DNA of 64,000 nt from Stutzerimonas stutzeri. Lineage in GTDB: Bacteria; Pseudomonadota; Gammaproteobacteria; Pseudomonadales; Pseudomonadaceae. The notes below the pieces were generated by a model. It searched no databases. It saw nothing but the letters and a program-made list of their open reading frames with translations, and was not told the DNA's origin. The stretch lies in assembly GCF_024448895.1 (NCBI RefSeq), contig NZ_JAMOIC010000018.1:1-64000 (forward strand), read 5' to 3'. Positions within the stretch are counted from its first letter, which is position 1. The number at the start of each line of letters is the position of its first letter. Positions 17,724 through 60,241 of this stretch are shown here, piece by piece. Made by a program: the position numbers and the translations under genes.

Positions 17724-17780
17724 CGGGCGAATAAATTCGCCCCTACGGTCCCGCTTTTGTAGGGGCGAACTTGTTCGCCC
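17724..17780. repeat. REPIN-like inverted repeat pair
   Basis: GGGCGAATAAATTCGCCCCT (from 17724) and GTAGGGGCGAACTTGTTCGC (from 17759) are near-perfect inverted copies, separated by a short spacer. This is the structure of paired REP elements in Pseudomonas. It lies between the fahA end and the convergent SGNH-gene end. Confidence 0.75.
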
Positions 17781-17805
17781 GGTAGCAGTAGGTTGGCGAT
17801 GCAGC

Positions 17806-18873
17806 TCAGTCTACGGCTGCGGTCTCAATTCCCAGTGGCGCTGTCGGGCCGGTCGCGGCGTTGCTGATCTGCTCGGCCAGGGCGACGGTGAATTCCTGCA
17901 CGGCCGACCACCGCATGTGCACGGCATCGACGAACGAACGGGTCGGCGTACTCCAGTCCTTGTCTGCGTTCCAGTAGGTGCCACCATGCGTACTCAGGGC
18001 ATCGGCGATGCGCTTGTCGAAGTCGGCGAGGAAGGTGCCATCCGGGTCGTATTTTTCTTTCCATTCCGGATGCAGCGGGGTGGAGACGACCATCAGTTTG
18101 CGGCCATCCTGTGCCAGGCGCGCGCCCATCTCGCGCAGGGCCGCGAAGCAGTTGCGGTCCAGTGGGTCAGGGCGGCCGTACAGCAGTTTGCGGGTGTTGT
18201 TGGTGACCAGTGGACCGTCGCCATAACGGTTGAACACCAGTGGATCCCATTCGATCTGTCCGGCGCGCTGCGCCTTCACGGTCAGTGCATTACGCGCCAG
18301 CGATTTGGGCGAGAAGTAGCGCATGTAATAGCCCCAGCGCGCCTCACCCTCATACACGTAAGGGTCGACATGCTCTCGGTTGAACACCGCGGCGGGCACT
18401 CGCCAGCACCCGGCGAAATCCTGCGGATCGGCAATCATCACCACGCTGCGAATGCTTGGCGATCGGTCCAGCAGCCAATGCCCGACATAGGTGGATTGAT
18501 TGGCGAACAGTCCGCAGAAGGCGCCGTTCATAGGCCTGATTTCCGGCAGTGTATTGGCCAGGATCTGGCTATCCACGTGCCGCCAGGCAACGGATGAGCC
18601 GATCACCAGGAGGTTGGGCGACTGGATAGGGTTGTCACGAAGGAAGTTGAGCTTCTCGTCCACGCATAGGTTGTTGGAGAACGCCGGAGGTGGCAGGTTG
18701 CCGGTCCGGTCCAGTGCGAAAAGCGTGGCGCAGAACAGAGTCAGCGCGCCGATCAGCCCGGCAAAGATGGAGATCAGATACCGCGACCGCACCTTACCCG
18801 GCGCGCTGGCCGTGCTGTCTTTCCTGCTGTCGGTGGTGCTCCCGTCCCTCGGGAAATCGGCGGCATGGACCAT
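17806..18873 (-). CDS. SGNH-fold membrane-anchored protein (DltD-like role)
   Basis: This is a 355-residue protein. One N-terminal membrane helix (YLISIFAGLIGALTLFCATL, about residues 32-52) leads to a periplasmic domain with LLVIGSSVAWRHVDS, a GxS-like block I holding the likely nucleophile Ser, and DAVHMRW near the C-terminus, a DxxH-like block V. This is the SGNH/GDSL layout. No full acetyltransferase membrane domain is present. It is the last gene of the MBOAT-FkbH-ACP operon, two bases after the carrier protein, with AAGGA inside the upstream coding end. By analogy with DltD it may complete transfer of an acyl group outside the membrane. Assignment beyond the fold is inference. Confidence 0.7.
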   Translation of the reverse strand: MVHAADFPRDGSTTDSRKDSTASAPGKVRSRYLISIFAGLIGALTLFCATLFALDRTGNLPPPAFSNNLCVDEKLNFLRDNPIQSPNLLVIGSSVAWRHVDSQILANTLPEIRPMNGAFCGLFANQSTYVGHWLLDRSPSIRSVVMIADPQDFAGCWRVPAAVFNREHVDPYVYEGEARWGYYMRYFSPKSLARNALTVKAQRAGQIEWDPLVFNRYGDGPLVTNNTRKLLYGRPDPLDRNCFAALREMGARLAQDGRKLMVVSTPLHPEWKEKYDPDGTFLADFDKRIADALSTHGGTYWNADKDWSTPTRSFVDAVHMRWSAVQEFTVALAEQISNAATGPTAPLGIETAAVD

Positions 18874-18875
18874 GA

Positions 18876-19124
18876 TTATCTTCCTTCGAGTTTGGCGTTG
18901 ATGACTTGGGCGAAGTGACCGACGTTACGCAGCGACTCGAGTTCGGCCGTGCGGAACTTGATGCCGAAGCGCTGCTCGGCGGCGACCGTGAGCATGACGT
19001 GGGTCTGGCTGTCCCAGCCGTCGATGTCGTTGGCCGTCAGTTCCGGCGAGAGCACGATGCTGTCGTCGTCGAATACGTCGTGAAAAACCGGTGTGAGTGC
19101 CTTGAGTACTTCTGCTTCTGTCAT
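18876..19124 (-). CDS. Acyl carrier protein
   Basis: This is an 82-residue acidic helical protein of the acyl carrier family. The phosphopantetheine attachment site is visible as GWDSQTHV, with Ser39 in the usual DS position. Length and acidity fit a discrete carrier, not fatty-acid AcpP (whose site is DSLD). It overlaps the FkbH gene by four bases and precedes the SGNH gene by two, so it is tightly coupled in one operon. It should receive the acyl unit made by the FkbH protein, as DltC receives D-alanine. A dedicated phosphopantetheinyl transferase is not in this window. Confidence 0.85.
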   Translation of the reverse strand: MTEAEVLKALTPVFHDVFDDDSIVLSPELTANDIDGWDSQTHVMLTVAAEQRFGIKFRTAELESLRNVGHFAQVINAKLEGR

Positions 19125-21040
19125 GCCTTTACCTCGATGTGGTGGTGGGAAGGGGTGTCGTGTGTAAGGTCCAGGCGCCAGAAGGTTGCCTCGCTCAACG
19201 CATCTGCCGGAGCGGGATGCTGGGTGAAGCCGAGCTGCGGGAAATGCTCGGCGACCATGCCGTTGCGCTCGGTGGGCCGGTATTCGCCGATCAGTGCCTT
19301 GTAGCCGGCTGCGATGGCTGTCTTGGCGAGCACTTCGAGCACCGCGGTTTCCACTTGCCGGCCCAGCACGCGACAGCTCATGAGCCAGCTGTCGATCAGT
19401 AACTCCTCGTCGGCGATGGCGGCGTCCGGGCGCGCCAGCACAACGCTGATCAGGCCGTTGTCGCCGAACTTGTCAGCCAGGCGGATCGCCAGAGCCACCG
19501 AGCGCGAATCGGCAGCGAGGCGTTCGACTTCAGCCTCGCTGTAGCGGCGCGTGGTGAGGTTGAACTGATTGGTTTTGTTAATCAGCTGAGTGCAGCGGGC
19601 AAGTTCGGCGGCGCCGATGGGCAAAGCGGTCATCACCATTTCCAGCCCGCGCAAATAGCCTTCCATGTCAGTGGCCTGACCCATGGCGGCCTTGCGTTCG
19701 GCGTTCAACGCGTAGTTACGGCCGCGGGTGGCGTCGTCCGAAGTAAAAGAGACGGCCTCGAAATAGCCCGCCGCGGCGACGCGGGCAGGGTAGTCGGCCA
19801 CGTCATCCGGCAATTCCGGCACTGCGACTTCAGGTAACTCGCGACGCACGATGTCACGCTCGGCCGGGTTGTCATCGACGAACACCAGGCTGTCCAGGCC
19901 GATGTCCAGCATCGAGGCGATGCGCCGCAGGTTGCCGGCCTTGTCTTCCCAGTTGGCGACGAAGGCTGCGATATCGCTGCGCTTGAGCGCCATTTCAGGG
20001 TGTTCAAAAGCCGCCTCGGCAACGCTCAGGTCATTCTTGCTGCACACCGCCAGGATGATCCCCCGACGGGCCAGCATTGCCGCATAACGTTGAAAGGCAA
20101 GAAAGGCTTCGCCGCTTGGCGAGCCCTGGCCGAGGTGGATGCCGTCAATGCCGTCGTCGCCGATGACGCCGCCCCACAGCGTGTTGTCCAGATCCAGCAC
20201 CAGGCATTTGCGCGATAGGCCGACACTGGCCGCGGCGATGCGCGCGAGCTGATCACCATAAAGAGGTGCCAGGTTAGGGCTGACCAGCTGCTTGGCCTGA
20301 TGCCAGCGCACGGGCTCAGCCAAGCCATCGCCATAGCTGCCGCGTGCGGCTTCCCAGGCAAGATCCATCAGCAAGACGCCATCTTCGCGGGCTGCAGCGC
20401 GAATGGTGGTGTTGAGTCGGTCGATCAGCGCATAGGGCGCAGCGGGAACCATCGCCTCGTAGGCCCCGAAGAGGGGCGGATCAGCCGGAACGATGGTCTG
20501 TTGCACAACCTGCGCGGCATGACGTTCACGGGCGCGACGCCAGAGCAGTCGAAGTAAATCGACGCGTTCGGCAATGGCGGCATCCACTTCCTCTTGAGTG
20601 GCCTCCAGCGGTAGTTGCAGCGGCGCATCGCGTGCGTCCAGGGCCATCACGATCAGCTGCGGTCCCAAGTCGTTGAGGGCGGCGTCTTCCATCAACAAGG
20701 CCTGACGGTACATGCCATAGGGCGCTACGTACGCTGAGATGGCCAACCCGCGCTGCAGCCCTGAGACGCGGATGGCCGGCACCAGATGGTCGACCGTATG
20801 CGAAGCGAGCAGGGCGATACGCAGCGGACGCAGGCCGGGCACGCTCGTATCCCCCTGTGCTATGGCGCGCAGGCCATCAGTTGCCAGCCGATCCAGGCGC
20901 GTGGTCTGGGTGAAATCCCGTCGAAAGCCAGACAATCGTGCGGCTTCGGCAAGTCTTACGAGCGGGTCCGCCACGCGCTTGGCCTCGCCGATGGCAGCAC
21001 CGAGGTCGGAATGTTGAGCTAGCCAGAGAAGCTGATCCAT
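19121..21040 (-). CDS. FkbH-type HAD-IIIC protein, probable glyceryl-ACP synthase
   Basis: This is a 639-residue protein of the FkbH type. The long N-terminal region of about 260 residues is followed by a HAD domain near residue 280 with LVLDLDNTLWGGVIGDDG (both Asp) and VFVDDNPAERD, then a GNAT-like C-terminal part (FNLTTRRYSEAEVERL, LADKFGDNGLISVVL). In polyketide pathways FkbH proteins take 1,3-bisphosphoglycerate and load a glyceryl unit on a carrier protein. Here the carrier gene overlaps by four bases. The dehydrogenases that convert glyceryl-ACP to hydroxymalonyl-ACP (FkbJ/FkbK-like) are absent, so glyceryl is the likely final unit. ATG at 21040 has AAAGGAG nine bases upstream. Confidence 0.8.
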   Translation of the reverse strand: MDQLLWLAQHSDLGAAIGEAKRVADPLVRLAEAARLSGFRRDFTQTTRLDRLATDGLRAIAQGDTSVPGLRPLRIALLASHTVDHLVPAIRVSGLQRGLAISAYVAPYGMYRQALLMEDAALNDLGPQLIVMALDARDAPLQLPLEATQEEVDAAIAERVDLLRLLWRRARERHAAQVVQQTIVPADPPLFGAYEAMVPAAPYALIDRLNTTIRAAAREDGVLLMDLAWEAARGSYGDGLAEPVRWHQAKQLVSPNLAPLYGDQLARIAAASVGLSRKCLVLDLDNTLWGGVIGDDGIDGIHLGQGSPSGEAFLAFQRYAAMLARRGIILAVCSKNDLSVAEAAFEHPEMALKRSDIAAFVANWEDKAGNLRRIASMLDIGLDSLVFVDDNPAERDIVRRELPEVAVPELPDDVADYPARVAAAGYFEAVSFTSDDATRGRNYALNAERKAAMGQATDMEGYLRGLEMVMTALPIGAAELARCTQLINKTNQFNLTTRRYSEAEVERLAADSRSVALAIRLADKFGDNGLISVVLARPDAAIADEELLIDSWLMSCRVLGRQVETAVLEVLAKTAIAAGYKALIGEYRPTERNGMVAEHFPQLGFTQHPAPADALSEATFWRLDLTHDTPSHHHIEVKA

Positions 21041-21074
21041 TAGCCGTTCACTCCTTTAATGAGAGCCGACGTGC

Positions 21075-22613
21075 TCAGAACTGGAAATAGAGAAACTCGG
21101 TTGGCGCCACGGAGAACGCCACGGCCAGCGCAAAGAACCCCAGCACGCCTATGGCAACACCAATCACCGGCGTCGGGCTCCACGAGAAGATCGGGAACCA
21201 GCGCAGCAGCCAGCTATCCTGCGGCCTCGCATCCAGCGCAGTGCGAAAGCGGGTGATCCATTGCTGCACGTTGGGCATCAGCCAGACGAACGCCAGCAGC
21301 ATGGCGATGGTGAGGAAGTCGGATTTGTCGAACTTGGTGGTCTGCTCGCTGAGGCCGACCATGCCGGACAGCACCGCCATCGCAGCGGTAACGCTCTCTG
21401 CACGGAAGAACACCATCGCCACGACCACGCAGAAAAAGGTCAGCAGGACGGCGCCGCAGTGATGCACCAGTTTGTCGCTATCCAGCGGTAACCCATGGCG
21501 CGCCTTGTAAGCGCGAAACCCGTGAGCGACCACCAGATAGAAGCCATGCAGCAGGCCGAACACCACGAACTGCCAACCCGCGCCATGCCAGACGCCGGAA
21601 ATGAACATGGTCAGCACCGTCGGATAAGCAACCAGCACCACGAATGTCCCAAGGCTCATCTTGCCGCGACGGGGCATTGGCTTACCGGCGGCCATGCGCG
21701 AGCGGGTGATACGCACGACGATGGGGTTATAGATGTACGCGGTGAGAAAGCGCGTCAGCGTCATGTGCCAGCGTGACCAGTAGTCGATGACGTTGTGCGC
21801 CTTGAACGGGCTGTTGAAGTTGACCGGCAGGCGCAGGCCGAACATCAGGCCGAGCCCGATGGCCATGTCGCTGTAGCCGGAGAAGTCGAAGTAGATTTGC
21901 AGCGTGTAGGTGAGGGCGCCGAACCAGGCGTCGTATAACGCCGGTACCGTGCCGTCGGCTGCAACTGCGAAGATCGGTGAGGCATTGGCGCCCAGCGGGT
22001 CGGCGATGATGACCTTCTTGAACAACCCCAGCAGGAACACAGTGATACCCAGCGCGATGTTGTCGATTCGCGGGCGAAAGGTGCTGTCGTCCTTGAACTG
22101 CTTGAGCATTTCACCGTGGTGGGTGATGGGGCCAGCAATCAGCTGTGGGAAGAAGCTGATGAACAGGCAGTAGTTGACGAAGTCATGCTCACTCACCTCG
22201 CCATCGTGGGCGTCGACCAGGTAGGCGATCTGCTGGAAGGTAAAGAATGAAATGGCGAGCGGCAGGATGATGTCGCCCACGGACCAACCCAGCCCGAACG
22301 CGCTATCAAGCGAATCGAATAGAAAGCCTGTGTATTTGTAATACCCGAGTAAGGCCACGTTAGCGCCGACGCCAACGATCAGTAGCAGGCGCGACGGCCG
22401 ACGCATCAAATAGCCGCCGATCAGGTAGTTCGCGACCATGCTGCCGACCAGCAAGGGCACGTATGCGGGATTCCACCAGCCGTAGAAGACCAGCGATGCC
22501 AGCGTCAGCCAGATCGCTGCGTATCGTTGTCTGCCAGTGCCTGCGAGAAGAACGAAGCCAAGAAGAACCACCGGAAGAAACCCGGCGATGAAGATCACTG
22601 AGTTGAAGAGCAT
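21075..22613 (-). CDS. MBOAT-family O-acyltransferase (DltB/AlgI-like)
   Basis: This is a 512-residue protein with about ten or more membrane segments. It shows the MBOAT pattern YFDFSGYSDMAIGLGLMFGL, then NFNSPFKAHNVIDYWSRWHM, and the catalytic His in ISGVWHGAGWQFVVFG near residue 340. MBOAT proteins of this branch carry acyl groups across the membrane to exported polymers, as DltB does for D-alanine and AlgI for acetyl. ATG at 22613 is chosen because MLFNSVIF is the usual MBOAT start and AAGGAAAAGGA lies just upstream; starts at 22643 are less likely. It is the first gene of the operon; the FkbH gene follows after 34 bp, ACP and SGNH next. Confidence 0.85.
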   Translation of the reverse strand: MLFNSVIFIAGFLPVVLLGFVLLAGTGRQRYAAIWLTLASLVFYGWWNPAYVPLLVGSMVANYLIGGYLMRRPSRLLLIVGVGANVALLGYYKYTGFLFDSLDSAFGLGWSVGDIILPLAISFFTFQQIAYLVDAHDGEVSEHDFVNYCLFISFFPQLIAGPITHHGEMLKQFKDDSTFRPRIDNIALGITVFLLGLFKKVIIADPLGANASPIFAVAADGTVPALYDAWFGALTYTLQIYFDFSGYSDMAIGLGLMFGLRLPVNFNSPFKAHNVIDYWSRWHMTLTRFLTAYIYNPIVVRITRSRMAAGKPMPRRGKMSLGTFVVLVAYPTVLTMFISGVWHGAGWQFVVFGLLHGFYLVVAHGFRAYKARHGLPLDSDKLVHHCGAVLLTFFCVVVAMVFFRAESVTAAMAVLSGMVGLSEQTTKFDKSDFLTIAMLLAFVWLMPNVQQWITRFRTALDARPQDSWLLRWFPIFSWSPTPVIGVAIGVLGFFALAVAFSVAPTEFLYFQF

Positions 22614-52257: not shown

Positions 52258-52537
52258 GAGAGTCCATCTAAAGAGGGGGTAACGGTCGATGCGCAAATGT
52301 GCCATCTTCCGATGTGAGTGCACCATCCCGAGCGATTCATCGCTCTGTTTCGAACGCCCACTGGTGCCTCCATGCATTTTCCTGATTTAGGCCAGGTCGA
52401 TCGGTGTGATCCCGCGGGAGACGCTGACTTGCGCTACGCTGTTACATGTCCGTTGTATGCTTCAACCCGCGCTAGAACGCCGCGTCGCGCCCAGGGTCGA
52501 AGCCCGTAGTAGCCGCCACCATGTTTGGAGAACTTGC

Positions 52538-55123
52538 ATGGCCCAACCTGATCTCCAATCCCGTCTTGCTTTCACGCTTCAATCTGCCGGTATGCTGGAG
52601 TGGTACGTCGAACTCGACGAGCCGCTTAATGACTCGAAGGCCGCAGTCGAAGCGGTTACTCACGCACTGGACGCCTGTTCGCTGGGCAGCACCTCACTGA
52701 CCGAGTTTCTCGAGCACATTCATCCTGAAGACCGCGACACCGTCGCCGAAGAGGTCGCCATTGCGTTGTCGACCGGCGACGAGGTGCGTTTTGAATGCCG
52801 TGTCCTCGTCGGTGAAACCGGTGTCCAGACGGTCTGCGTCACGGGGCGCTCTACCGCACATCCCGAATTTCGATCGCTGCACTTCGTCACTCAGGACGTC
52901 ACCGATTGCCGCCGTTCCGAAGCCATCGCCGAAGGCCAGATGCGCGCACTGGAGCGGGCGGTGGCGGGAGCACCGTTGACCGAGGTGCTGGTTGAACTCA
53001 CCCAATCCGCGCAGAAGCAATCAGCCGGGATGATCCGGGCAGCGATCATGCGCCTGGATGACGATGGCAAGCTACGATTCGTCGAGTCGTCCAGCCTTCC
53101 GGATGATTTCGTTCGATCTCTCGATGGGATGGATGCGGGATCCAACGAAACGAGTTGCAGCGTATCGGTGCGCACCGGCGAGCCGAGCATCACCGCAGAC
53201 ATCAGAGTCGATCCGAATTGGCAACGACATCGCGGCAAAGCCCTGGAACACGGGTTTCATGCCTGCTGGTCGACACCCATTCTGTCAGCTGAGCGCGAGA
53301 TCATGGGGACCATCGCCTGCTACAGCAGCATGCCATCCGTGCCGTCGGCCTTGGAACAGGAGGGCATCACGCTGCTTGCCAACACGGCGGCGATGGTCGT
53401 GCAACGTGACCGAGCCAATCGGGCCCGTGCCAAGGCAGAGCAACGAATGGCCATCAATGAGCGGCGCTTCCGGGGTCTGGTAAAAGCCACCAATAGCCTG
53501 ACCTGGTCGACGAGCCCGGCGGTGGACATTATCGAGCCGCAAAGCGAGTGGAGCGAGTTCACTGGTCAGAGCTTCGAGCAAGCCTGCGGCAAAGGCTGGC
53601 TGGATGCCGTGCATCCTGATGATCGTCCGGAGCTTGAAGTGGTGGTCGGCGAAATGCATTCGGTCTTTACCAACAAGCGCGCCGAATATCGCGTACGCCG
53701 GTTGGACGGGCAGTACCGGCACATGGCAGGGCACGCGGTCCCGATCTTCGATGAGCGCGGCAACATCAAGGAGTGGTCCGGCGGCCTGACCGATATCACC
53801 GACCGCAAGCAGGCCGAGCACCGGTTGAACCACATGGCCACCCACGATGCCCTGACCGGGCTACCGAACCGGACCTATCTCAACGACCATCTGCGCGAAC
53901 TGGTCAACTTCATTCCCGAAGGCCAGCAGGTGATGATCATGCTGATCGACCTTGACCGGTTCAAGGAAGTGAACGATTCCATGGGGCACGGTTATGGCGA
54001 CGTACTCTTGGTACAGATCGCCCATCGGCTGCGTCAGGCGCTGCCCTCCGGTGATCTGGTGGCGCGATTGGGCGGTGATGAGTTCGTGGTGGTTGCACAC
54101 TTGCCGGATGGAATCAGGTCAGCCGAGCTGATCGCGACCAACCTGCTGCGGGCCATCCAGGTGCCTTGTGATGTGCTTGGTACGCGCTATTACCCGTCGG
54201 CCTCGATGGGCATGTGTCTCTATCCCAACCCCGATACGACCATTGACGAACTGCTGCAGCATGCCGATATCGCCATGTACCGGGCAAAGGATGCAGGCGG
54301 CACGCGGATACAGTTCTTCTCTGCTGAGATGAGCATTGAAACCAAGAACCGCATGGCCCTTGAACTGGACCTGCGCGACGCGCTGGAGCGTGACGAGTTC
54401 GTGTTGCACTACCAGCCGCGCATTCGCCTGGGCGACGACACGGCCTGTGGCGTCGAGGCGTTGATTCGCTGGAATCACCCCACAAAGGGTCTGATTCCGC
54501 CCAATGCCTTCATTCCGATTGCCGAGGCCACAGGACTGATCTGCAATATCGGCAGTTGGGTCCTGCGCCAGGCCTGCGCGGACATTCAGCTATTGGTCGA
54601 GCGCATCGGGATCGATCTGGTGTTGTCCGTGAACGTGTCACCTGTTCAACTCAAATCGCCGACGCTGTGCAGCGATGTTCGACAGGCGCTGGAAGCATCG
54701 GGCATGAACGCGGCCCACCTCGAGCTGGAGTTGACCGAGTCTGGTCTGATCGAAGATACCGACACCTCGCACAAACTCCTGCGGGACCTATGCAACATCG
54801 GCGTCAGGCTGGCCATCGACGACTTCGGGACCGGATACGCCGGCATTGCTTACCTGCGGCAATATCCCATCGATGTCGTCAAACTCGATCGCTCCTTTCT
54901 CGGGCCGTCGTCCAATACGGACAGCTCACTTGATTTCATCAAGGCGGTGACCGAGATGTGCCATTCGCTTGGCATGCGAGTGGTGGCAGAAGGGGTCGAG
55001 GATTCGAACATGCTGCAGCAGCTGGTGCGGTCATCATGCGATGAAGCCCAGGGCTACCTGTTCGCTCAGCCCATGCCGTTGGCTGGGCTCAATGACTTCA
55101 TCATCGACCGGCAAGCGAGCTGA
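52538..55123 (+). CDS. GGDEF-EAL protein with PAS and GAF domains
   Basis: This is an 861-residue soluble protein. A PAS-like region (about 20-130), a GAF domain with CSVSVRTGEPSITADIRVDP and HGFHACWSTPILS (about 150-290), a second PAS (about 310-430), then GGDEF (RLGGDEFVVV near residue 515) and EAL (GVEALIRWNHP; DDFGTGYAGIAYL). Both catalytic signatures are intact. The product-inhibition site is not RxxD: the residues before LVARLGGDEF read PSGD. It may make or break c-di-GMP depending on signal. ATG at 52538 has GGAG at 52527. It is convergent with another GGDEF-EAL gene. Confidence 0.9.
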   Translation: MAQPDLQSRLAFTLQSAGMLEWYVELDEPLNDSKAAVEAVTHALDACSLGSTSLTEFLEHIHPEDRDTVAEEVAIALSTGDEVRFECRVLVGETGVQTVCVTGRSTAHPEFRSLHFVTQDVTDCRRSEAIAEGQMRALERAVAGAPLTEVLVELTQSAQKQSAGMIRAAIMRLDDDGKLRFVESSSLPDDFVRSLDGMDAGSNETSCSVSVRTGEPSITADIRVDPNWQRHRGKALEHGFHACWSTPILSAEREIMGTIACYSSMPSVPSALEQEGITLLANTAAMVVQRDRANRARAKAEQRMAINERRFRGLVKATNSLTWSTSPAVDIIEPQSEWSEFTGQSFEQACGKGWLDAVHPDDRPELEVVVGEMHSVFTNKRAEYRVRRLDGQYRHMAGHAVPIFDERGNIKEWSGGLTDITDRKQAEHRLNHMATHDALTGLPNRTYLNDHLRELVNFIPEGQQVMIMLIDLDRFKEVNDSMGHGYGDVLLVQIAHRLRQALPSGDLVARLGGDEFVVVAHLPDGIRSAELIATNLLRAIQVPCDVLGTRYYPSASMGMCLYPNPDTTIDELLQHADIAMYRAKDAGGTRIQFFSAEMSIETKNRMALELDLRDALERDEFVLHYQPRIRLGDDTACGVEALIRWNHPTKGLIPPNAFIPIAEATGLICNIGSWVLRQACADIQLLVERIGIDLVLSVNVSPVQLKSPTLCSDVRQALEASGMNAAHLELELTESGLIEDTDTSHKLLRDLCNIGVRLAIDDFGTGYAGIAYLRQYPIDVVKLDRSFLGPSSNTDSSLDFIKAVTEMCHSLGMRVVAEGVEDSNMLQQLVRSSCDEAQGYLFAQPMPLAGLNDFIIDRQAS

Positions 55124-55183
55124 GCATGCGCTGAGCTAGCTCGCCGTGTGGAGGTCCGGCCATGCCGGGCCGCCAAGGACTGC

Positions 55184-57709
55184 TCATCCTCTTGCCGCAC
55201 TTCGGCTGATCGCTTGCTCCTGGTGCTCGTCGACGATCCGCTTGAAAGGCTCCGAGGCGGTAGGACGGCCCAGGTAGAACCCCTGGGCCTGGTCACACGA
55301 CAGTTCGGTCAGCTTTCCAAGCTGCGTCACTGTCTCTATGCCCTCGGCCGTTACCGTGAGCGACAAGGCATGACCCATGCTGACGATGGCATGCACGATC
55401 GCCTCGCTGCTTTGCGAGTGATCCAGGCCGGAGATGAAGCTGCGATCGATCTTGATGCCGTCGAACGGGTAGGTGCGCAGATAGCTGAGCGATGAATAGC
55501 CGGTGCCGAAATCATCCATCGACAGCCGAACACCCAGCGCCTTCAAATGGTTCATGGTAATCAGCGCGGCGGCGGCGTCTTCAAGCATCACACTCTCGGT
55601 GATTTCCAGCTCAAGCCGTTCCGGTGATATGCCGGTTTCAGTCAGCGCCGCAGCGATGCGGTCCACCAGATCATTGCGCTGAAACTCCACCGACGACAGG
55701 TTTACCGAAACCATCATGCTGTCACCCCATGTCAGGGCGTTGGTGCAGGCCTCACGGATCACCCAGTCGCTGAGCTCGATGATCTGCCCGGTTTCTTCAG
55801 CCAGCTGTATGAAACTGTCCGGTGGCAGCAGGCCCCGGGTGGGATGATGCCAGCGCACCAGCGCCTCGGCCCCGACCAGCTTCTGCCCAGCCGCTTCGTA
55901 GCGCGGTTGAAAGTCCAGGCGGAACTCACGCCGACGCAGCGCGTGCCGCATGTCGATTTCCAGCTGTCGGCGCTCCATGATTCGCTCGTTCATAGCCGGC
56001 TCGTAGAAGCGGAACAGGTTGCGGCCGCTGGATTTGGCTTCGTACAGCGCGATGTCGGCGTACCGCAGCAGGTCCTCCCCATTAATGCCATCGAATGGCG
56101 CGCAAACCACGCCGATGCTGGTGCCGACACTGACTTCATTGCCGGCTATCGTAATTGGCTGATTGATGCGCTCGATAAGCCGTTGGCAGAGTCCCTCCGC
56201 TTGTTCGCGGGTCTTGCAGTCGGTCGCAACCACGACGAATTCGTCCCCGCCGAGCCTCGCCACCAGGTCGGTCGAACGAGTGCAACTGTTGAGCGCATTG
56301 GCCACTTCGCGCAATACCATGTCGCCCGCTGCGTGACCGAACGCGTCGTTGACCGGCTTGAACCGATCAAGGTCGAGCGCCAGGAGAAACACGGGACGGT
56401 CCGCGTTCAAGCCTTCGCTGAGGCGGCTATTGATGAAATGGTTGAGCCGATGACGATTGGCAAGGCCAGTCAGCGCATCGTGATGGCTGATGTGTTCGAT
56501 CCGTGCCTTGGCTTCAATTTCTTCGGTGATATCGCAAACCGTGCCCTGGTAGCCCAACAGCCGGTCACCTGCACGCACCGCGCGTGCGGAGAGCTGGCAA
56601 TAGCGCAGGCTTTCGTTCGCGGCGTTCATTTCGCAAGGTATAGGTCGTCGCCCGCTATTCGCACTCACCTCTGCCGTGATCGCCAGCAGCCTCCGGTCAT
56701 AGGCAAGTAGATCGGTCAATGAGCGTCCCAGCCATTGTTTAGGAGACAGCCCGGTCAACTGGGCGAAGCGATCGGAAAGGTAGGTCAGGTTTTGCTGCGA
56801 GTCGGTTTCCCAGATCCAGTCCGATGACGCCTCGGATATGTTCTTGAAGCGCTGCTCGCTGATCTGCAATGCCTGCTGGGCAGCATCGATCATGCGGGTG
56901 GCGTGCATGACGCGCATGCGCAGCCAGCACACCAGTACCCCAACCAGCAGGCCGACGAGAAACAACACCGGCAGGAAGATTTTGAGGAGCGAAAGGCCGA
57001 GCTCTTCACTGTTCCATTGAAGGGTTACGGGACTGCCTAAAGCGGCCTGTAGCGTCAGTTTCGGGCTGGGCGAGCCGGGCAGGGTGCCAATGGTTGCCCT
57101 GAGATCGTCCAGGTCGAATGCCAGGTCGATGACCTTCAGCTTTGCCTCGGTCAGCACATCGACGTAAACGAGGTAGGACAGCGTCGAGAAGTCGTCATAG
57201 GAGCTGTCAGGGCGTATCACTGCTGCGGAAACAACGGTCGGGATTCCGGCCACCGAAAAATAGGCATGGGCCACCTCATCATCCGTGGACTTGTCGCGGG
57301 CCTCTTTCAGCAGGGCTGGGATGTCTCCCGAGATCCAGTCATTGGCAGGCGTTTCGCTCAAGGCGCCATCGATGATGCCGTAGCGGGTAGCGGCATCCGG
57401 CCCAAGGATGAAAACGCCGTCCAGACCGTAAGTCGAAAACAGTGAGGGCCCAATATTGTCTCCTTCAAAGGTCCAGGTCAGATCAATTTTGCTATGCGTG
57501 TAGTTGTAGGCGTCGTACCAGAATGCGTAGTCAGCTAGTGCAGTACCTATCTTGTCCTGGCGGCTTTCCATTGCCCTGGCAGCATCCGTTTCGCTGTGGT
57601 TCACCTGATGCTCATCCAGCGCAAGGCATAAATAGACCAGCGCCAACCCAGCCGCGATGAACAGTGCTGCAACTACGTAAACAAAACTGAGGGAGGCTTT
57701 GCGGGTCAT
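55184..57709 (-). CDS. Membrane GGDEF-EAL protein with CHASE4 and PAS
   Basis: This is an 841-residue membrane protein. One helix (SFVYVVAALFIAAGLALVYL), a periplasmic CHASE4-like domain of about 230 residues (DYAFWYDAYNYTHSKIDLTW; YGLDGVFILGPDAATRYG), a second helix, PAS, then GGDEF and EAL domains. ARLGGDEFVVV and VGAEALVRWHHP are intact, and RSTD sits five residues before GGDEF as a likely I-site. ATG at 57709 is chosen because the hydrophobic anchor follows; starts at 57760 or 57949 are possible. It is convergent with the other GGDEF-EAL gene. Confidence 0.88.
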   Translation of the reverse strand: MTRKASLSFVYVVAALFIAAGLALVYLCLALDEHQVNHSETDAARAMESRQDKIGTALADYAFWYDAYNYTHSKIDLTWTFEGDNIGPSLFSTYGLDGVFILGPDAATRYGIIDGALSETPANDWISGDIPALLKEARDKSTDDEVAHAYFSVAGIPTVVSAAVIRPDSSYDDFSTLSYLVYVDVLTEAKLKVIDLAFDLDDLRATIGTLPGSPSPKLTLQAALGSPVTLQWNSEELGLSLLKIFLPVLFLVGLLVGVLVCWLRMRVMHATRMIDAAQQALQISEQRFKNISEASSDWIWETDSQQNLTYLSDRFAQLTGLSPKQWLGRSLTDLLAYDRRLLAITAEVSANSGRRPIPCEMNAANESLRYCQLSARAVRAGDRLLGYQGTVCDITEEIEAKARIEHISHHDALTGLANRHRLNHFINSRLSEGLNADRPVFLLALDLDRFKPVNDAFGHAAGDMVLREVANALNSCTRSTDLVARLGGDEFVVVATDCKTREQAEGLCQRLIERINQPITIAGNEVSVGTSIGVVCAPFDGINGEDLLRYADIALYEAKSSGRNLFRFYEPAMNERIMERRQLEIDMRHALRRREFRLDFQPRYEAAGQKLVGAEALVRWHHPTRGLLPPDSFIQLAEETGQIIELSDWVIREACTNALTWGDSMMVSVNLSSVEFQRNDLVDRIAAALTETGISPERLELEITESVMLEDAAAALITMNHLKALGVRLSMDDFGTGYSSLSYLRTYPFDGIKIDRSFISGLDHSQSSEAIVHAIVSMGHALSLTVTAEGIETVTQLGKLTELSCDQAQGFYLGRPTASEPFKRIVDEHQEQAISRSAARG

Positions 57710-58069
57710 GGCTGTATAGCCGGCTGACTCGAGAGCGGGGTTCGCTGCGGTAAGTGTCATTAGATCATTCGCCAAGCTGGAACAGGACTGCGCGAACTGA
57801 CTGTGCGCAAGCTCTGTATCGGCGGTAGCGCGGTCTAGGTTGATAGCGGCTGCGTGATTCCGACCGGCGGCGGCCTCGCCTGGAGCCCGTCCAGCCGGCA
57901 CTCGGGCGTCGTCCTCTTCGCGACATGTAAGGACATTGTAAAAAGCCATCGCCAGCGCCGATCCGGGCGCAGTACCATTTCGCGGACTAACTACCTGACG
58001 CCTCCATCAGCTCGTCCAACATTGGTCGTGCGGCTTTGTCACATCAGCGGTATCCCCTCTTGGTGATCG

Positions 58070-60241
58070 ATGTGCCAATTCGAGATTGCGTGGCGGTTCG
58101 GCAAATATCTGCCAGCCGTAGGCCCGCCTTTCCAACCGACGAGCATCGATGTGAGCGCAGACGTGTCTTCCGAAGAAAAACGAATACTCATCGGTGCGCG
58201 CGAGGGCTCTAACGCTGCCGGCGCAATCAATGTGCTAACAGAAGAGGGTTATGCAACCCTGTTTTGCGGTGACGCGGCCGGTCTGATTCAACGGCTGGAT
58301 GATGGTGTCGGCGCCGTGATCATCGACGACGCCTTTGTTTTGGCTCTGCTCGATCTCTCACCTGCGTCGAGGGCAACACCGGCCTGGACCAACATCCCCG
58401 TCATCCTGATAACGCAGCGTCAGGGCATGTCCCGTGCCGACTTCGCGGCGTTGAGTGCGCAGCTGCCGGCGAGTATCGCTGACCTGGTGGTTCTTGAATC
58501 GCCGCTGGGCGAGGCATCGCTGCTGAGCACGGTGGCCGCGGTATGGCGTTCGCGTCAGCGTCAAGTCGAGATACGCGACCGTTTGAATGAGCTGGCCGAG
58601 CAACGCGCCACGTTCGAAAGCCTGGTCGAACATCTTCCGGTCGGGGTGTGCCTCATCGACATGAACGGCGCCACGATACTCAGCAACCCGGCCTACGAGC
58701 GTTACGTGCCGAATCGGCAGATCCCCTCCGCCGATGACGCTCGTGCGGGGCGCTGGCTAGGTGTGGATAGTGACGGACAACCGCTGCCGCGTGACCAGTT
58801 TGCAGGTGCGCGCGCTCTGCGTGGCGAGCGGGTCTCGAGTCTCGATGCACGTTACTTCCCAGAGGAGGGTGGCGAGTTATGGGCCCGTATCAGTGCGGTG
58901 CCTTTGTACGATGCCAATCAGACGGTCAAGGGCGCTGCACTCGTCATCATCGATATCGACGCTCAGAAGCAGAACGAGGACATGTTGCGTCGTTTCAATG
59001 ATGATCTGGAAGCACAGGTAAAGGCCCGCACCCGAGCGTTGGAAGATGCGCTGGAGAAGCTGACGCTTGAAACTCAGGAGCGCGCCCGTGCTGAGGAGCA
59101 GTTGCGACAGTCCATGAAGATGGATGCCGTAGGCCAGCTTACTGGCGGCATCGCGCACGACTTCAACAACATGCTCACTGGCGTCATCGGAGCGCTTGAC
59201 CTGATGCGTTTGCGCATCGGCCGGCAGCAGTACGGAGATCTGGACCGCTACATGAGTGCTGCGCATTCATCTGCCAGCCGCGCCGCCGCCTTGACCCAGC
59301 GCTTGCTCGCATTCTCACGCCGGCAATCGCTGGAGTCTCGCGTCGTTGCAGTCAATCCGTTGATTCTTTCCCTGGGCGAACTCCTGCAGCGGACCCTTAC
59401 AGAGCGAATCATCCTGGACATTCAGCTGGATGAAGCCAGCGGTCTGGCCGAGGTGGACCCCAATCAGCTGGAAAACGCATTGTTGAACCTGAGCATCAAT
59501 GCCCGGGATGCAATGCCCGATGGCGGCACCCTGACCATTACCACCCGCCTGGCCCGGATCGATGCGGCAGAAGCCGCCGATCTGGGCGGTAACGCGGGCA
59601 CCTACGTCGCGATCGATATAGCGGACACAGGCGTAGGTATTCCGGCCGCCATGCTGACGAAGGTCTTCGAACCCTTTTTCACGACCAAGCCGCTGGGGCA
59701 GGGGACCGGGCTGGGGTTGTCCATGGTCTACGGTTTTGTTCAGCAGAGCAGCGGGTTCATTTCGGTAAGCAGCACCGAAAATGCAGGAACCTCGATCACC
59801 TTGTATTTGCCGGCAGCGCAGGCATCGACCGAGGTGGCGGAAGCGCGCGCGGCTAATACCGAGGTCAGGTCGGGTACTGGTCAGGCCATTCTTGTGGTGG
59901 AAGACGACGACTCCGTTCGGTTGTTGCTCGATAGCGTCCTACAGGACCTCGGCTATAGGGTTCATCTCGCCGAGAACGGTCAGCAGGCATTGGACATGCT
60001 TCCTCGCATTGGCACCTTGGACCTGCTGGTTACCGATGTCGGGCTGCCGGGGTTGAATGGTCGTCAGCGCGCCGAGATCGTTCAACAGCGCCGTCCGGGG
60101 CTACCGGTTCTGTTCATCAGTGGTTATGCGGAGAACGCTGCCACCCGTTCCGAGTTTCTCGGGCCCAGGATGCGGTTGATGACCAAGCCTTTCACCCTCG
60201 AATGTCTGGCCGAAACGGTCTCGAGCGTGTTGCAAATCTGA
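58070..60241 (+). CDS. Hybrid histidine kinase with degenerate N-terminal receiver
   Basis: This is a 723-residue soluble kinase. The N-terminal about 130 residues look like a receiver fold: [31 protein letters not shown], where the usual Lys-Pro is Glu-Ser-Pro. A PAS domain ([19 protein letters not shown]) and a coiled segment follow, then H-box [21 protein letters not shown]-box [29 protein letters not shown], and a C-terminal receiver with Asp in [13 protein letters not shown] and Lys in MTKPFTL. It resembles the kinase at 32518-34449 without being adjacent. The target is unknown. ATG at 58070; a later GTG at 58151 is possible. Confidence 0.86.

Follow-up and report, generated by a model that had tools for sequence, protein, structure and literature searches.

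The systems closest to the locus described here are of two kinds, namely MBOAT–SGNH acylation pathways such as Dlt and PatA/PatB, and natural product clusters that use FkbH enzymes. In the former, the tyrosine of an FxYxxF hexapeptide, at the C-terminus of Campylobacter PatA or in DltX, receives the acyl group from the MBOAT protein and hands it to the serine of the SGNH protein (as described in passages of PMC12148441). This 2025 paper also states that, Dlt aside, MBOAT/SGNH pathways have no DltC-like carrier protein, evidently owing to their use of acyl-CoA. FkbH enzymes, in turn, load glyceryl from 1,3-bisphosphoglycerate (according to parts of PMC7489565 and PMC8949500), and for tetronate clusters glyceryl bound to an acyl carrier protein (ACP) has been proposed as the end product (PMC7489565, same part). 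Here we analyse a stretch of 64,000 nucleotides from Stutzerimonas stutzeri (assembly GCF_024448895.1, contig NZ_JAMOIC010000018.1, positions 1 to 64,000; hereafter the window), in which four minus-strand genes encoding an MBOAT acyltransferase, an FkbH-type HAD protein, an ACP and an SGNH-like protein form one tight operon. We propose that they constitute a carrier-protein-dependent MBOAT–SGNH envelope acylation system charged by FkbH, a reading to which we assign a probability of about 0.6. The operon would be an apparent exception to the rule that non-Dlt pathways are carrier-less. The combination of FkbH, ACP, MBOAT and SGNH also appears to be undescribed so far, as no description of such an operon was found among titles and abstract openings of the open-access literature, subscription papers and preprints lying outside the scope of that search.

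The operon and its four products

The operon consists of genes for the MBOAT protein (21075..22613; 512 amino acids), the FkbH-type protein (19121..21040; 639 amino acids, with an N-terminal FkbH_N-like domain), the ACP (18876..19124; 82 amino acids) and the SGNH-like protein (17806..18873; 355 amino acids). MBOAT and FkbH are separated by 34 bp, FkbH and ACP overlap by 4 bp, and ACP and SGNH are 2 bp apart. All four open reading frames (ORFs), together with the overlap and the 2-bp gap, are as given in the original prediction, which had been made from the sequence before this analysis and described the genes as a coupled set. The MBOAT start was taken as the ATG at 22613, which is preceded by an AAGGA-like site; the ORF as called opens at GTG 22643 (522 amino acids), and the ORFs of many relatives are 512 amino acids long.

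The MBOAT protein scores 90.1 bits on PF03062 (cut-off 27) and matches the DltB structures 6bug and 8jem with E-values of about 1e-27. Its H283 and H343 (293 and 353 in the 522-residue ORF) sit in WxRWHM and WHG stretches that align with DltB. The protein ends in FLYFQF (21078..21095, minus strand; Tyr codon 21087-21089), which fits the FxYxxF acyl-shuttle motif. A motif of the form F.Y..[FYLIVM] was present in 75 of the 84 MBOAT ORFs checked, a set that counts some places twice (genus loci and named loci of one genome); the nine misses were truncated or mis-called ORFs and V.Y variants. We regard the protein as a candidate channel and transferase whose C-terminal tyrosine would accept the acyl group delivered by the ACP.

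Since the SGNH-like protein has no Pfam or NCBIfam match at E-values up to 0.1, its assignment rests on invariant residues and predicted fold. Both G92-S93-S94 and D316-x-x-H319 are invariant in 24 of 24 proteins, and a single hydrophobic segment starts near residue 36. The structural model, with a predicted local distance difference test score (pLDDT) of 88.7, has an SGNH fold, and its best Foldseek match in the PDB is DltD (6pfx; E-value 5.4e-6, TM-score 0.45). On this basis the protein is a candidate final transferase, an SGNH-like protein with a Ser/Asp-His set and a single-pass membrane anchor.

On the donor side, FkbH passes the family model TIGR01686 with 286.8 bits (cut-off 146.65). 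Residues D283, D285, S334, N336, K367, D389, D390 and C556 are invariant in nine of nine FkbH proteins, four of which come from Streptomyces plasmids, and the HAD residues and C556 are common to tetronate-type and methoxymalonyl-type FkbHs; a second cysteine, in a VCSKN stretch, is not invariant. With its N-terminal part, the window FkbH belongs to the long type, as does the tetronate-type protein of a Streptomyces locus (L182), in contrast to the short FkbHs of two further loci (L183, L185). The ACP carries its putative attachment serine, Ser39, in a GWDSQ stretch (codon 19008-19010), and W37-D38-S39 is invariant in 21 of 21 aligned proteins. The one ACPS-family match in the genome is the candidate phosphopantetheinyl transferase. 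No dehydrogenase gene adjoins the operon among its immediate neighbours in the window, which agrees with the earlier claim that FkbJ/FkbK-like dehydrogenases are missing; in FK520, the ACP is reportedly FkbJ and the dehydrogenases FkbI and FkbK, so that FkbJ had been named as a dehydrogenase in error. Because no dehydrogenase lies beside the operon, and because this long-type FkbH has the invariant HAD residues and C556, family knowledge leads us to expect glyceryl-ACP as the end product, in line with the proposal for tetronate clusters in part of PMC7489565.

These components suggest the following route. The genome's phosphopantetheinyl transferase would convert the ACP to its holo form. FkbH would take 1,3-bisphosphoglycerate, strip the remaining phosphate and leave on the ACP a glyceryl thioester, presumably of the D configuration; the activation energy would come from a glycolytic acyl phosphate rather than from an ATP-dependent ligase. 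The charged ACP, which would serve as the donor in place of acyl-CoA, would dock at the cytoplasmic face of the MBOAT protein, and the latter would move the glyceryl group to the tyrosine of FLYFQF on the periplasmic side. The membrane-anchored SGNH protein would then take the group on its serine and esterify a periplasmic acceptor, most likely a surface glycan and possibly a rhamnose-containing one. We consider this mechanism plausible, and better supported than before by synteny, catalytic residues, the C-terminal shuttle motif and the SGNH fold. The same evidence lends independent support to the donor-to-membrane logic of the original prediction, in which an FkbH–ACP donor feeds MBOAT–SGNH export, whereas we infer the plain glyceroyl group, every chemical step and, above all, the acceptor.

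Conservation, distribution and surroundings

The operon is present in most sequenced Stutzerimonas species and, in a similar form, in some distant bacteria; its parts, their order, their conservation and their catalytic residues can be read directly from the sequences. Among 56 genomes of the genus, FkbH was found in 35 and the MBOAT at no less than 74% identity in 49; one further genome (G009) adds only a 32% relative, and seven show neither FkbH nor MBOAT. In the 14 genomes with MBOAT and no readable FkbH, the stretch from MBOAT to ACP/SGNH reads N over 1,917-2,013 bases, and one of these loci (L173) has one more N run of 387 bases elsewhere. The idea that FkbH had been swapped in these 14 for another enzyme joined to the ACP was dropped, as the presence or absence of FkbH is unreadable there.

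Gene order and strand are identical in 33 of the 33 Stutzerimonas loci with readable FkbH, a set that leaves out the full-length FkbH places of two genomes (G035 and G044). With ORF starts put at the first start codon, the FkbH/ACP overlap is 4 bp in 28 of the 33 loci and larger in the other five. The conserved MBOAT-FkbH-ACP-SGNH synteny that the original prediction proposed to look for is thus present in the genus, and outside it MBOAT often accompanies FkbH, as described below. Because order and strand are kept across several genomic settings, the operon has been passed on or moved as a unit. Moreover, the S. stutzeri genome of 5.39 Mb holds a single MBOAT match, which, together with the constant order and strand, argues that the arrangement is not due to chance.

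Some genomes carry more than one copy. G001, G004 and G018 have two full-length FkbH operon copies each; of the four proteins, SGNH has diverged most, perhaps reflecting two acceptors or sites. Of the copies adjacent to rmlD, one lies near a replication gene of an integrative and conjugative element (STY4534 family; L037 15944-16999), and another has neighbours that match helicases and defence ATPases weakly (L052 1670-5250), which suggests that the additional copies of G001 and G004 are carried by genomic islands. In L052, a broken fragment of a second MBOAT gene (936-1433, contig G004:C14), 88-90% identical to the window MBOAT over its best part, lies about 6 kb away from the intact copy, apparently a trace of loss or movement. 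A 517-residue ORF cluster beside the operon (c18), which has no Pfam match, was discarded as, by position, the antisense of LpxR.

Within the taxonomic order to which Stutzerimonas belongs, the operon is rare outside the genus: FkbH relatives (E-value up to 1e-40) occur in 11 of 293 genomes, two of them Stutzerimonas, and the seven loci examined from other genera (L057-L063) gave no match to the window MBOAT. For a wider comparison we used the 80 closest named FkbH loci, the best 80 of 581 candidates encoding a relative. MBOAT lies within 5 kb of FkbH in 48 of the 80, and 18 of these 48 also have the same SGNH family (Stutzerimonas, Pseudomonas baltica, Roseomonas-type and other Alphaproteobacteria; seven, L082 and L083 among them, are counted as Stutzerimonas). 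Linkage of FkbH with MBOAT is seen again in alpha-, beta- and gammaproteobacteria, Acidobacteria and others. The genus to which Sphingomonas mali belongs has such an FkbH in 16 of 201 genomes, with MBOAT within 5 kb in 12 of the 18 loci examined, some of which are the same places as named ones. Viral contigs gave no match, and phage records gave two unannotated ones.

In the other MBOAT loci inspected, a different single-pass protein is encoded near MBOAT. Thirteen alternative partners, encoded near MBOAT or FkbH, were compared: all have an N-terminal hydrophobic segment, 12 have DxxH and five have GSS in the N-terminal third. They are putative SGNH proteins at most; a model built from four aligned rows was poor (pLDDT 56.2) and its Foldseek list was not used. 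A methyltransferase gene stands between FkbH and MBOAT in L118, L186 and L187. Taken together, FkbH-ACP-MBOAT looks like a constant donor module with exchangeable partner proteins. On pSymB of Sinorhizobium meliloti (L035 3864-9743), a VOC-family gene, an MBOAT gene (product ending in PFLYQGF) and genes for a 409-residue protein, an ACP and FkbH occur together; the 409-residue protein, annotated 'TonB-dependent receptor', is more likely the partner of the MBOAT. In S. meliloti strain 1021 the FkbH match is in two pieces. A plasmid of Rahnella sikkimica (L159 5152-7665) encodes an FkbH-type protein amid aminotransferase, CDP-alcohol phosphatidyltransferase, ATP-grasp and major facilitator superfamily genes, to all appearances a different use of FkbH.

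Trees of the two proteins, from which loci with FkbH of up to 450 or MBOAT of up to 350 amino acids were omitted, show histories that agree moderately: FkbH and MBOAT distances correlate with r 0.515, a value that none of 999 permutations reached (n = 51). In the MBOAT tree, loci with this SGNH family form an exact split with support 0.999, one locus cut off by a contig end (L092) being grouped with them.

In the window, the operon is flanked by a chemotaxis receptor (methyl-accepting chemotaxis protein, MCP) gene on one side; its other neighbours, the fumarylacetoacetase (fahA) and homogentisate dioxygenase (hmgA) genes, converge on it. Where the operon and fahA converge, an inverted pair of repetitive extragenic palindromic (REP)-type sequences (17724..17781), GTAGGGGCGAAYTTRTTCGCCC, 12 nt apart, lies between their ends. 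With one mismatch allowed, GTAGGGGCGAAYTTRTTCGCCC has 75 copies in the genome, compared with none for a reversed-pattern control; the pair is a possible 3' boundary and not acylation machinery. A promoter scan found none, and terminator-like sites (6 versus 4.2 in shuffles) were not clearly above expectation. Elsewhere in the window (52406-60241), a hybrid sensor kinase gene is accompanied by genes for two GGDEF-EAL proteins, one on each strand.

Acyl group, acceptor and alternative explanations

Several observations weigh against an FkbH-charged, carrier-dependent acylation system. On PF00550 the ACP scores 16.2 bits, below the Pfam cut-off of 20.8, yet it is recognisable as a carrier. DltD chains fill the first ten Foldseek rows for the SGNH-like model (E-values 5.4e-6 to 1.3e-4), with TM-scores that are low (0.36-0.45). 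Six DltB residues are named as contacts to DltC in the part of PMC11035591 that deals with this interface; in our MBOAT alignment four of them (Val, Val, Arg, Arg) are unchanged or similar, whereas the other two are lost (Met to Asn and Met to Thr). The position of their DltC Glu partner is Met in the window ACP. Because these contacts are only partly kept, docking of the ACP on the MBOAT in the Dlt manner is unproven. No MBOAT is found near FkbH in 32 of the 80 named loci (27 with ACP only, five with neither), 14 of which have less than 5 kb of sequence on one side. The FkbH tree gives no clean split for the loci with this SGNH family, so that MBOAT and SGNH seem to travel together more strictly than MBOAT and FkbH; without Stutzerimonas the distance correlation falls to r 0.319, the trees agreeing in part. 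There is no polysaccharide gene among the immediate neighbours of the operon in the window. The chemical steps of the mechanism are predicted from sequence, and the D-glyceryl expected from FkbH differs from the L-glycerate on gellan (as given in a passage of PMC9104527).

As to the acceptor, dTDP-rhamnose genes near the operons of relatives point weakly to a rhamnose-containing surface glycan. In six of the 33 genus loci, rmlD lies within the examined flanks, and its arrangement varies; the L037 copy begins 23 bp past SGNH, with a polysaccharide pyruvyl transferase gene two genes further on. Either rmlC or rmlD is near six of the 18 named loci with the SGNH family versus one of the 62 others (Fisher p 0.00037), near three of 11 versus one of 61 without Stutzerimonas (p 0.010), and near seven of all 48 MBOAT-linked loci versus none of 32 unlinked ones (p 0.023), although these tests ignore relatedness and unequal flank lengths. 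In Roseomonas nepalensis (L088), which has the four genes, rmlC begins 65 bp past ACP and a glucose-1-phosphate cytidylyltransferase is encoded nearby; rmlC is also present in a locus from the Sphingomonas search (L202). LpxR belongs to a lipid A deacylase family. In 19 of the 35 genomes with readable FkbH its gene is found downstream of the operon in the same orientation, 1,394-1,437 bases past FkbH, which leaves room for ACP and SGNH; however, this link looks like one inherited chromosomal context, and LpxR is present in 47 of the 56 genus genomes anyway. With such dTDP-rhamnose and lipid A genes close to the operon in relatives, a surface glycan or lipopolysaccharide is the favoured acceptor, without the matter being settled. 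That the same machine acts specifically on a rhamnose-containing lipopolysaccharide O-chain or exopolysaccharide, with biosynthesis genes elsewhere in the genome, is a rather unlikely narrowing of this idea: 27 of the 33 genus loci have no rmlD in the examined flank, and neither an rml nor an LpxR gene is adjacent to the window copy.

The remaining alternatives concern the acyl group and the nature of the product. It is unlikely, though deserving of consideration, that the cargo of the ACP is not plain glyceryl but, for instance, phosphoglyceryl or glycerate modified by enzymes encoded elsewhere, which MBOAT–SGNH would then transfer. The module family does seem to diversify its acyl group, given that related modules with other MBOAT partners contain a methyltransferase gene (in the three loci named above), a VOC-family gene (L035, L036) or dehydrogenase genes (a short-chain dehydrogenase/reductase in L124, a flavin mononucleotide-dependent enzyme in L104); within Stutzerimonas, however, the operon leaves no room for an extra gene between the four genes in any of the 33 loci. 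We find it improbable that MBOAT–SGNH is an ordinary acetyl-CoA-dependent O-acetyltransferase sharing an operon by chance with an FkbH–ACP pair that serves a separate product. Acetyl-CoA is used by PatA, and its authors, in the relevant part of PMC12148441, extend this to other MBOAT/SGNH pathways; FkbH–ACP pairs also occur away from any nearby MBOAT in 27 of the 80 named loci. Yet none of the 33 genus loci separates the four genes, the FkbH–MBOAT link recurs across proteobacterial classes and in Acidobacteria and others, and the operon contains no other enzyme able to use glyceryl-ACP. Least probable of all, and by our estimate very much so, is that the product of the operon is a secreted small molecule or a lipid, with MBOAT–SGNH acylating a lipid or metabolite head group instead of a polymer. 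MBOATs as a class also acylate lipids, and in Paroceanicella (L034) an FkbH–ACP relative lies by lipid genes, near mprF, with no MBOAT annotated there. For the suomilide cluster, too, acylation of a small molecule by an MBOAT has been proposed (part of PMC13122637), but the fusion of a shuttle motif and the presence of an SGNH partner characterise systems that acylate polymers (as passages of PMC12148441 indicate).

Returning to envelope acylation charged by FkbH, we tentatively extend it to a fuller model, which we hold with somewhat less than even confidence. The operon would be a Gram-negative counterpart of Dlt, in which 1,3-bisphosphoglycerate powers glyceroylation of a surface glycan, probably rhamnose-containing, by way of FkbH, ACP, a tyrosine shuttle fused to MBOAT, and SGNH. 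The portable FkbH-ACP-MBOAT donor module, combined with different partners and in some cases a methyltransferase, would then give rise to a family of glycerate-derived envelope acyl groups. If this holds, the transmembrane acylation of envelope polymers would gain both an acyl group and a source of energy that are new to it, and the stated restriction of carrier proteins to Dlt among MBOAT/SGNH systems would have an exception. FkbH, an enzyme familiar from polyketide and peptide natural product pathways, would acquire a cell-surface role in most species of an environmental genus, and glycerate esters on bacterial polysaccharides would have a candidate enzyme type. Because the operon comprises just four genes, few enough to reconstitute, the claim is directly testable.

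Comparison with described systems

The donor half of the operon most resembles tetronate cassettes (mad7/mad8 with the FabH-like mad16, as described in part of PMC7489565; Streptomyces L182), which also combine FkbH with a stand-alone ACP. L182 consists of KASIII (a ketoacyl-ACP synthase), FkbH, ACP and phosphopantetheinyl transferase, and its FkbH likewise has a long N-terminal part; the window FkbH is 34% identical to it and 30% to the methoxymalonyl type. Whereas KASIII is proposed to consume glyceryl-ACP in tetronate cassettes, the window operon has MBOAT–SGNH and no FabH/KASIII-like gene. Methoxymalonyl-ACP cassettes (FK520 type; L183, L185) share FkbH and ACP, but have a short FkbH and two dehydrogenases. 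The window FkbH lacks these two dehydrogenases and a methyltransferase, its neighbours being MBOAT, ACP, SGNH, fahA, hmgA and MCP. The banyaside/suomilide (bsl) cluster also combines an FkbH domain with an MBOAT; there, a peptide synthetase begins with the FkbH domain, and the proposed substrate of the MBOAT is the hexose of a small molecule (according to a part of PMC13122637).

On the product side, gellan and other sphingans are reported, in a passage of PMC9104527, to carry an L-glycerate O-acyl substituent on a rhamnose-containing exopolysaccharide. A glycerate ester on such a polymer is akin to the proposed product, apart from L-glycerate there and the expected D-glyceryl here. We do not claim a link between the operon and gellan glyceroylation, no gellan producer's genome or glycerate-step genes having been identified.

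The membrane half has the features of the bacterial MBOAT–SGNH class: a catalytic His and a C-terminal FxYxxF in the MBOAT, and the Ser/Asp-His set and an anchor in its SGNH partner. The O-acetylation systems PatA/PatB, AlgI/AlgJ/AlgX and WssH/WssI likewise combine an MBOAT ending in FxYxxF with a separate membrane-anchored or periplasmic SGNH transferase; their donors are acetyl-CoA, in contrast to the ACP and likely loading enzyme of the window operon. With Dlt, which D-alanylates teichoic acids (DltA, DltB, DltC, DltD, DltX), the operon has in common a carrier donor, an MBOAT, an SGNH-like protein whose predicted fold finds DltD first in Foldseek at low TM-scores, a tyrosine shuttle hexapeptide and, as proposed here, the order of events. 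The ACP has its putative phosphopantetheine-attachment serine in the invariant WDS, as a carrier role requires. There are also differences. FkbH would take the role of DltA, an adenylation-type D-alanine ligase, and none of the four genes has an AMP-binding match. The MBOAT scores 179.6 bits on TIGR04091, the DltB equivalog, and misses its cut-off of 375, homology being clear all the same. The SGNH-like protein does not match the DltD family PF04914 (family number from PMC9487903). The gaps of 34, -4 and 2 bp leave no room for a DltX gene, the shuttle motif being fused to the MBOAT C-terminus; DltX elsewhere was not sought. A Gram-negative host is a further difference. The earlier description of the operon as Dlt-like therefore holds for its possible working mode and not for membership, DltA and DltX being absent from the operon and the DltB model cut-off missed. 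The operon is a variant of MBOAT–SGNH acylation rather than a member of Dlt, and combines a donor side of the Dlt type with a membrane side like that of Pat.

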